A DNA stretch of 31,166 nucleotides from a virus. Below are positions 3,005-9,276 of the stretch, piece by piece; the stretch's first letter is position 1, and each line of letters starts with the position of its first letter. The translations under genes and the position numbers were made by a program. Where the stretch lies: the IMG/VR virus record IMGVR_UViG_3300020595_000128, positions 1 through 31,166 of that record; one strand, written 5' to 3'. The notes beneath the pieces are model-generated. The model was not told where the DNA came from and made no database searches. It saw nothing but the letters and a program-made list of their open reading frames with translations.

Positions 3005-3461
3005 GACTAATTCTTGTAGATGGTTAATGTTGCTTACGCCTGAATAGCTTTTGGTGATATCTGAGCAGAGCTTCAAATCCCCCATAGGGTATAGAACCCT
3101 ATAGAGGAAAGGAAATAGCTTAAGGTTGACTCATCGCATTCTCCGGCACCCACGAGCAGGAAAGGTATAGGAATCCATCACTCGCTAACACTTTTGTTTA
3201 GAGCATTGAAACTACAGCTTTTTCCAAAAGCCATAGGTCTCTATCCGGTGTGTATTATTCATCCGGATCATTGGCGAAGTTATCTACTATCAGTAACCAT
3301 CTCTTCCAAACGTAAGGGCTTTGTTTTGTGTTGCGCCTCAATACTCAGCAACAAAAAAGACCCTATCAGTTTCAGCGCCTCGCCCTCGCTTACTCCCGAT
3401 AGAGTCTTAAATGTATACTTCTAAAACAATCACAACGGGCGAGAAGGATTGTTTGTTGATG

Positions 3462-3968: not shown

Positions 3969-4007
3969 TTTAGTTAATTAATCAGTAACCTGCAAGTCTT
4001 TCCTTGC
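3969..4007 (-). promoter_or_regulatory. Hairpin plus GGTTACTGAT leader module (C1)
   Basis: Minus strand: hairpin GCAAG, loop GAAAGA, CTTGC (3992-4007), then AGGTTACTGATTAATTAAC (3981 onward) leading to the next gene. It shows the same order of parts as the modules at 4.4, 5.3, 5.7 and 5.95 kb, with a different stem sequence. Confidence 0.55.
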
Positions 4008-4418: not shown

Positions 4419-4469
4419 AATAAAGTGTTTTAAGATATCAGTAACCGGTGACCCTAATCAGGGTACACC
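4419..4469 (-). promoter_or_regulatory. Hairpin plus GGTTACTGAT leader module (C2), stop codon in loop
   Basis: Minus strand: GGTG(T)ACCC, loop TGATTA, GGGTCACC (4447-4469), then GGTTACTGATATC (4437-4446 region). The TAG of the upstream gene (4454-4456) lies at the loop, so a ribosome terminating there would melt the hairpin. Confidence 0.55.
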
Positions 4470-5289: not shown

Positions 5290-5333
5290 AAACATTAATT
5301 TAAGTTATCAATAACCGCTAGACCTAGTCTAGC
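5290..5333 (-). promoter_or_regulatory. Hairpin plus GGTTATTGAT leader module (C3), stop codon in loop
   Basis: Minus strand: perfect 7-bp stem GCTAGAC/GTCTAGC with the 3-base loop TAG (5317-5333), then GGTTATTGATAACTTAAATT. The loop is exactly the stop codon of the upstream gene (5324-5326). The single change C to U in the block (ACTGAT to ATTGAT) would keep pairing with a G as a wobble. Confidence 0.6.
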
Positions 5334-5683: not shown

Positions 5684-5726
5684 AAGCATTCAATTTAAGT
5701 TATCAGTAACCGAGGGCGTTGCCCTC
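5684..5726 (-). promoter_or_regulatory. Hairpin plus GGTTACTGAT leader module (C4)
   Basis: Minus strand: GAGGGC, loop AAC, GCCCTC (5712-5726), then CGGTTACTGATAACTTAAATT to the next start. The upstream stop codon lies five bases before the stem here rather than in the loop. Confidence 0.6.
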
Positions 5727-5932: not shown

Positions 5933-5980
5933 AAAGCGTTTGTTTAAATTATCAGTAACCGAGGGGTCATTTGCCCCCTC
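5933..5980 (-). promoter_or_regulatory. Hairpin plus GGTTACTGAT leader module (C5), stop codon in loop
   Basis: Minus strand: 6-bp stem GAGGGG/CCCCTC around an 8-base loop containing the TGA of the upstream small gene (5967-5969), then CGGTTACTGATAATTTAAAC. Position and order match the other modules, while the stem sequence differs. Confidence 0.6.
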
Positions 5981-6113: not shown

Positions 6114-6131
6114 AAGCATTTAATTTAAGTT

Positions 6132-6265
6132 ATCAGTAACCAAGGACAGCTAGTGCTGTCCCTGCATCTCTCATACGTACTCTCTACGTTCCGTGGTTTC
6201 GCCCCATCTCAGGGGTCGTACCCGTAGGTACAGCTAGGTAGATTGCCTAGCCTCATCAGACTGAT
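6132..6265 (-). ncRNA. Candidate large hammerhead ribozyme with branched stems (HHR3)
   Basis: Minus strand order: stem I strand ATCAGT (6260-6265), core CTGATGA (6253-6259), G10.1 (6252), branched stem II, C11.1 (6201), core GAAAC (6196-6200), stem III ACCA (6193-6196) with TGGT (6139-6142), cleavage triplet GTT, then ACTGAT (6132-6137) closing stem I. In place of a simple stem II there are three hairpins (GCTAGG/CCTAGC, GTACC/GGTAC with TACG loop, CCCC/GGGG). Stem III encloses two more (ACGTA/TACGT and GGACAGC/GCTGTCC). The 5' edge abuts a TAA and the 3' edge the conserved leader. Core residues are complete, but the branched stems are unusual, so activity is uncertain. Predicted cut between 6138 and 6137. 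Confidence 0.5.
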
Positions 6266-6371
6266 TTATTTTTCCATAATGTCAAAGAACGCTGAGGTCT
6301 TACCCTCACTTGCTTCAGCTAATGTACGAAACGTATTCCGTAATTCCTAGCTTATTCACAACTTTATTCAC
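6266..6371 (-). pseudogene. Possible frameshifted small gene
   Basis: Two frames adjoin. From GTG 6369-6371, VNKVVNKLGITEYVSYIS ends in TGA at 6315-6317. In another frame, TFRTLAEASEGKTSAFFDIM ends EK at TAA 6266-6268, immediately before the HHR3 candidate. Joined, they would make a normal-looking 40-residue helical protein, but the second frame has no start codon after its preceding stop. This suggests a frameshift mutation, a sequencing error or recoding. Weak evidence. Confidence 0.3.
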
Positions 6372-7321: not shown

Positions 7322-7375
7322 GTTACGGACTGCCCTGAGGCAGTTTCGGGTGTGCTCACCCATCATCAGCGTAAC
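7322..7375 (-). ncRNA. Type I hammerhead ribozyme (HHR1)
   Basis: Minus strand: stem I GTTACG (7370-7375) pairs with CGTAAC (7322-7327). Core CTGATGA (7363-7369), then one extra T, stem II GGGTG, loop AGCA, CACCC. Then GAAAC (7343-7347), stem III with loop TCAG, and cleavage triplet GTC (7328-7330). Predicted self-cleavage lies between 7328 and 7327, just 5' of CGTAAC. All core residues are present; the extra base at the core/stem II junction is unusual and could slow it. It starts right after the TAG of the gene at 7378 and releases the conserved leader of the gene at 7303. Confidence 0.85.
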
Positions 7376-8674: not shown

Positions 8675-8941
8675 CTAGTTTGTTCTTTCAATTATGCCGT
8701 ACTCATCTAAGTCCCTGACCACTCTTACGGGCATTTGGTCACCCTGCTTCATTTTAAGGATATCTTCAAATTCCTCATTAAGTGCGAATACTAACTCACG
8801 CTCTTCTTTATCTTCATTGTAGAAGAACAACTCCTTAAAGGTGAGTTTTTCAGTGTAGGAACAACCTTTGTGAACCATCACTATGGTGTACGTGATTTCA
8901 TCTACGAAGTTGGCTTGGCGATTTGCGAATTGATTTTTCAT
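8675..8941 (-). CDS. Hypothetical protein (88 aa)
   Basis: The product MKNQFANRQANFVDEITYTI and onward appears to be a small alpha/beta protein, with acidic middle (FYNEDKEERELVFALNEEFEDIL) and a beta segment MPVRVVRDLDEYGIIERTN at the end. The start at 8939-8941 follows HHR2 and the leader TAACTTAAATTAAATGCTTT. Function unknown. Confidence 0.65.
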   Translation of the reverse strand: MKNQFANRQANFVDEITYTIVMVHKGCSYTEKLTFKELFFYNEDKEERELVFALNEEFEDILKMKQGDQMPVRVVRDLDEYGIIERTN

Positions 8942-8957
8942 AAAGCATTTAATTTAA

Positions 8958-9007
8958 GTTATAGACCCCCGTAGGGGTTTCGTCCTATCAGGACTCATCA
9001 GTATAAC
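8958..9007 (-). ncRNA. Type I hammerhead ribozyme (HHR2)
   Basis: Minus strand: stem I GTTATA (9002-9007) pairs with TATAAC (8958-8963), extendable by one A-T. Core CTGATGA (8995-9001), stem II GTCCT/AGGAC with a 3-base loop starting with the invariant G10.1-C11.1 pair. Then GAAAC, a stem III of C and G runs with TACG loop, and cleavage triplet GTC (8964-8966). Predicted cut is between 8964 and 8963. Every conserved core position of the hammerhead family is present. It begins inside the TAG of the gene at 9007 and ends at the conserved leader, so cleavage would separate two adjacent genes. Confidence 0.93.
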
Positions 9008-9249
9008 TAGTCTAGGTAACTATCATAGAAACTTCTATAGCTCTCTTGGGTCACTCCTCTTAGCCCTAGTTTAGAACTAAGTCGAGCACTTAGTTTATAA
9101 GCATCATTTTGCTTATCCTCAATGAAGATATCCAAATCTCCAAAAGCGAGTTCTACAGCGTAAGACAATGCGTTTAGCTCCTCCTTAGTGAACCTAGTGG
9201 TGAAGACATCTCTCGTTCCATCTTCGTGCGTGATTGCGTACTTTTTCAT
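9007..9249 (-). CDS. First gene of the leftward cluster, hypothetical (80 aa)
   Basis: Start chosen at ATG 9247-9249 after the leader TTTAAATATTTGCTTT; upstream extension would run through the leader and promoter. The product MKKYAITHEDGTRDVFTTRF and onward has a beta N-terminus and helical remainder, ending SYRSFYDSYLD. It lies about 28 bases after the -7 box at 9277-9284, so it heads the leftward transcript. Function unknown. Confidence 0.65.
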   Translation of the reverse strand: MKKYAITHEDGTRDVFTTRFTKEELNALSYAVELAFGDLDIFIEDKQNDAYKLSARLSSKLGLRGVTQESYRSFYDSYLD

Positions 9250-9276
9250 AAAGCAAATATTTAAATGGTTATTGGG

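Follow-up and report, generated by a model that had tools for sequence, protein, structure and literature searches.

Type I hammerheads and a larger hammerhead-like RNA with repeated candidate cleavage sites in a group of related phages

Genomic context

The stretch of DNA analysed here, referred to as the window, comprises 31,166 nucleotides of the viral contig IMGVR_UViG_3300020595_000128 from IMG/VR. Its terminase is nearest to those of phages of Flavobacterium, Cellulophaga and Maribacter, with identity under 60%, and this kinship places the phage host probably in the Flavobacteriia. On the minus strand, two small open reading frames (ORFs) flank a compact element, HHR1, which the original prediction had described as a complete type I hammerhead ribozyme:

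9007 to 9249, minus strand: upstream small ORF, 80 aa, without a PHROG or Pfam match; stem I of HHR1 starts within its stop codon
8957 to 9008, minus strand: HHR1, a canonical cis type I hammerhead, with the predicted cut between 8964 and 8963
8675 to 8941, minus strand: downstream small ORF, 88 aa, without a PHROG or Pfam match; 90% identity in the related contig L019

A type I hammerhead between two small genes

The fold and core of HHR1 were located on the minus strand as predicted, and the core has the order CUGANGA, GAAA, NUH, with CUGAUGA at 9001-8995, GAAA at 8981-8978 and a GUC whose last base is 8964. Three stems surround it. Stem I, the open one, pairs AGUUAUA (9008-9002) with UAUAACU (8963-8957); stem II is GUCC/GGAC (8994-8991 with 8985-8982) around the loop UGAUA; and stem III is CCCC-UACG-GGGG, the loop of which we take to be a cUACGg tetraloop. 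The coordinates 8958-9007 proposed originally were right, with stem I extending one pair further (9008/8957), and the element spans from the TAG stop codon of the upstream ORF (9009-9007) to 15 nt ahead of the ATG of the downstream ORF (8941). As for the description 'textbook', it fits the core and the stems but not the interior of stem I: loop II usually makes its contact with an internal loop or bulge there, and neither was seen.

The covariance-model check proposed with the original prediction gave a full-length match to Rfam Hammerhead_1 with an E-value of 1.2e-5 (250-nt search), at 29.7 bits against a gathering score of 34, which is a curation cut-off and not a biochemical definition. Because HHR1 falls below this score, the window yields no entry in an Rfam scan at default settings. 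The fold is the minimum free energy (MFE) structure, at -17.5 kcal/mol; its z-score versus shuffles is only -1.58, which makes free energy by itself weak, non-discriminating evidence. A descriptor combining the core and three stems matched twice in the window and 0 times in 300 dinucleotide-model sequences. Across 19 phage hammerheads from the window and other IMG/VR contigs, 96.7% of stem cells are paired, stem I drifts freely and all seven of its pairs show double-sided changes; none of 500 shuffles did as well as this set in the share of paired cells or in covariation score. Counterparts of HHR1 are present in relatives, at the equivalent place in L019 and also in L006, L149 and L080, with the fold kept through compensatory changes. 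A blastn search of the phage collection returned zero matches for the HHR1 region or for the larger RNA described below.

The claim of a type I hammerhead between two small phage genes is backed by the covariance-model match, by covariation and by related hammerheads in relatives. The best reading of the sequence is that HHR1 is an ordinary, real hammerhead whose position would suit cutting the message between two small genes. Cleavage would leave an upstream message ending in the stem III hairpin with a 2',3'-cyclic phosphate, and a downstream message with a short 5'-OH leader. We infer this leader, and the label 'early mRNA' that came with it, from gene order and hammerhead chemistry.

The first reading of the sequence missed two further elements on this strand, the large RNA (6275-6126) and a second small hammerhead (7375-7322):

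7322 to 7375, minus strand: HHR2, another cis type I hammerhead, in which A9 is followed by an extra U; predicted cut between 7328 and 7327; kept in three related contigs (G004, G006 and G007)

In all four copies, the window included, the extra U interrupts the core. The RAGATH-1 hammerhead (RF03152) matches both small elements weakly, HHR1 at 25.3 bits and HHR2 at 17.8 bits, both far under its gathering score of 56.3.

Hammerheads have been found in phages before. Several flank prophage genes in the survey of Perreault et al., 2011 (PMC3088659), which proposes that they cut long phage transcripts into operon- or gene-length mRNAs and which describes active core variants, a statement made of the variants there and not of the extra U in HHR2. 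HHR1 and HHR2 are further members of these already known phage hammerheads: like Hammerhead_1 (RF00163) in phages and prophages, they have the core, three stems, an open stem I, an intergenic place and several copies per phage, HHR2 differing by its extra U. One viral contig (L020) carries seven type I hammerheads, several with differing stems, and another (L028) has more hammerhead-like sequences near phage genes, at 2800-2850 and 3086-3160, one of them with a long stem III.

A large hammerhead-like RNA

On the same strand, 2.7 kb beyond HHR1, lies an RNA of ~150 nt with the following parts:

6126 to 6275, minus strand: large hammerhead-like RNA with its tethered site, 167.6 bits with model R1 (a model built from these same sequences)
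6253 to 6265, minus strand: stem I arm AUCAGU (6265-6260) and core CUGAUGA (6259-6253)
6195 to 6201, minus strand: C11.1-GAAA-CC, comprising core GAA and the stem III arm ACC
6132 to 6141, minus strand: tethered site GGUU|ACUGAU, with a hairpin immediately upstream

Its layout reads AUCAGU-CUGAUGA-G-(three hairpins)-C-GAAACC-ACG-(hairpin)-(hairpin)-GGUU|ACUGAU. The core is perfect (CUGANGA / GAAA / NUH), stems I and III are kept in all sequences, and the site is tethered by a linker. Stem II is a single G-C pair that closes the three-hairpin junction; a one-pair stem II has active precedent (PMC3088659). None of the Rfam hammerhead families matched this RNA at E-values up to 10, and for that reason we term it hammerhead-like and do not list it as a hammerhead member. 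The one-pair junction stem II and the presence of matching sites elsewhere in the genome set it apart from the phage members of Hammerhead_1.

Nine phage contigs carry the large RNA: the window itself together with G001-G008. They form one related phage group. Scanning viral contigs and GTDB genomes under relaxed criteria revealed it nowhere beyond these nine, model R1 had zero matches in 395 Bacteroidia genomes, and protein-guided scans using two neighbour genes returned known family members only. Additional hits from the relaxed scans were rejected as family members: each has between 0 and 2 arm matches on the sense strand, and they resemble fortuitous matches in coding sequence. When any core accompanied by repeated arm matches was accepted, the scan yielded mostly noise until an abutting hairpin was made a condition.

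In eight aligned sequences of the large RNA, all 200 of 200 helix cells are paired, and double changes occur at 10 of the 15 pairs of hairpins 1, 3 and 4. Stems I and III have double changes at none of their nine pairs and a single G-U (hypergeometric P about 0.0015 versus the hairpins). Frozen arms of this kind are expected if the arms have to suit many sites simultaneously.

Repeated copies of the predicted cut-site motif

The tethered sequence recurs as a motif, GGUH|ACUGAU, at several downstream places in the window:

5951 to 5980, minus strand: distant site 1, GGUU|ACUGAU with an abutting hairpin
5702 to 5726, minus strand: distant site 2, GGUU|ACUGAU with an abutting hairpin
5307 to 5333, minus strand: distant site 3, GGUU|AUUGAU, where pairing is still possible through G-U, with an abutting hairpin
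4437 to 4469, minus strand: distant site 4, GGUU|ACUGAU with an abutting bulged hairpin
3981 to 4007, minus strand: distant site 5, GGUU|ACUGAU with a hairpin one nucleotide off
3289 to 3298, minus strand: doubtful site GGTTACTGAT, lacking both a strong hairpin next to it and an ORF downstream, and altered in G006

Over the whole records of eight contigs, GGTNACTGAT has 63 matches, all 63 on the ribozyme strand and 0 on the opposite strand. Sixty sites lie >200 nt from the ribozyme, spread over eight of the nine contigs, the window among them; the contig G007 ends about 340 nt past its tethered site and has no further site in it. Within the regions examined, pair-compatible sites are all downstream of the ribozyme except for one loose match in G004 with G at position 17. 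At that position the 60 distant sites have U (51), C (8) or A (1) and never G, an absence that rests on few independent changes. Most sites are followed after 20-30 nt by a start codon, with a few farther away or without an ORF. In 53 of the 60 cases the site adjoins a stem of 5 bp or longer, compared with 10% of control positions, and the upstream 20-mers comprise 47 distinct sequences. Twenty unrelated contigs with the same 17-mer have a single copy each, without such a stem.

The ribozyme arms and the sites also vary together. In five contigs the arm is preceded by AAGUU, and there every site (46/46) keeps AAYUU, able to pair with it; where the ribozyme is without AAGUU, AAYUU is kept at 7 of 14 sites (Fisher 9e-6 between the groups, with shared ancestry ignored). 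The arm in G004 is AUCGGU, and pairing with ACUGAU is preserved through G-U. Permuted arms give 0.1 to 0.7 mean matches versus 4 to 14 observed in eight of the nine records, and by this measure the complementarity of the sites in those eight records to the two arms exceeds what chance would give. A second control took random arms from the record itself, which makes a weak null where the sequence is AT-rich; under it four records were not significant (P of 0.18 for the window, 0.08 for G006, 0.07 for G008 and 0.59 for G007). These motifs, their positions, the covariation and the co-occurrence are observed directly.

Of 38 sites cofolded, 35 take up the hammerhead shape in their MFE structure, although in G006 only one of three sites cofolds as needed. 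Random 50-mers reach binding energies in an overlapping range, so that the energies do not separate the sites from them. The predicted trans pairing is short: stem I has 6 bp (11-12 bp with a 3-nt bulge in five contigs) and stem III has 3 bp. The tethered UGGU end left by cis cleavage may obstruct stem III.

A proposed multi-target ribozyme

We consider it likely that HHR1 cuts in cis between two small genes and that the large RNA likewise cuts the many GGUH|ACUGAU sites downstream of it. It also seems probable, if with some reserve, that the large RNA is a natural trans-acting hammerhead which, from an operon leader, cuts the message of that operon at many intergenic sites and leaves 3' ends capped by hairpins. 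Catalysis, cutting of the distant sites, whether in trans or by long-range contact within one transcript, and an effect on expression are what we infer. A candidate for the leader lies directly ahead of the ribozyme:

6279 to 6307, minus strand: nut-like leader, a hairpin GAGG..CCUC (6307-6294) followed by the boxA-like TTCTTTGACAT (6289-6279)

This copy of TTCTTTGACAT, just upstream of the large RNA, is the sole exact one in the window. It resembles the boxA-like sequence of one Bacteroidia rRNA operon (L176), which has GTTCTTTGAAAT before the 16S gene and GTTCTTTGACAT further down. In the proposed order of events the nut-like leader comes first, the operon would then be read through, and the ribozyme would cut ahead of many start codons. 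Its AUCAGU and GAAACC arms would pair with GGUH|ACUGAU right behind the hairpins in downstream intergenic gaps, and the large RNA, with or without first cutting its own tethered site, would cleave the polycistronic message of each phage at anything from several to roughly a dozen positions. The products would be shorter mRNAs with 3' ends capped by a hairpin. For the role of the leader and the effect on expression we argue by analogy with known boxA biology (PMC10250234) and hammerhead chemistry.

Other explanations deserve consideration. The large RNA might cleave only itself, its tethered site being one copy of an element, hairpin-GGUHACUGAU, whose remaining copies serve as targets for some other factor that binds or cuts them, such as a ribonuclease of phage or host origin or a translational regulator. 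The short trans pairing, with binding energies that overlap random ones, and the occurrence of AACUUAAAU leaders at genes without sites too would agree with this; we nonetheless think it unlikely, given that almost all copies fit the two arms exactly and with the spacing of a hammerhead, that H17 is confined to U, C or A, that the arms are frozen and that AAGUU and AAYUU covary. It is very improbable that the small cis hammerheads are role-less remnants tolerated among phage genes: one phage can indeed be without a hammerhead that its relative has, but the cores are intact, the stems have compensatory changes across phages, and some phages have multiple hammerheads per contig (seven in L020). 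Least credible of all, and rejected, is a DNA operator or promoter palindrome for a protein at GTTACTGATAAC. The commonest form is indeed palindromic (GTTA-CTGA-TAAC), but its left half varies at position 17, where C occurs 8 times and A once, with no corresponding change in the right half; the copies all have the same orientation and a hairpin adjoins 53 of 60.

In nature, RNase P already provides an RNA that cleaves many substrates in trans, as we propose for the large RNA; it differs in having an unrelated fold and chemistry, in needing a protein in cells and in acting on structured precursors. To our knowledge, small self-cleaving ribozymes that occur in nature are viewed as having themselves as their target. 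Most natural hammerheads self-cleave (PMC6412130), and trans-cleaving hammerheads are described as laboratory constructs (PMC6155905; PMC6412130). The latter resemble the large RNA, as we read it, in their separate ribozyme and substrate strands joined by stems I and III. They are engineered, whereas here both halves are phage-encoded, the sites are many and a hairpin abuts a 3-bp stem III. Among the open-access papers searched, no precedent for a natural trans-acting hammerhead was found, and cutting in trans would be the novel part of our proposal. If it is true, the large RNA would process mRNA as a natural RNA enzyme with multiple targets, one hammerhead acting on a dozen of the phage's own intergenic sites. 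There would then be a role for at least some of the hammerheads of prokaryotes, a matter that PMC6155905 describes as an open question.

Other conserved elements

Several further conserved elements were observed on the same strand of the window. A leader motif, CTTTATGA, is found at early gene starts, at 9253, 8945, 8599, 8230, 7849, 7072 and 5936, and is often preceded by a stretch resembling AAATTAAATG. A conserved intergenic element, CCUCGC-hairpin-GGGYUUUGGUGGUAUAACUAA, has two copies in the window (8670-8610 and 7920-7860) and two in G002, with equivalents in L019. Finally, a long, structured-looking non-coding stretch at 4140-3990 separates two early genes, and similar stretches are found in G002 and G006.
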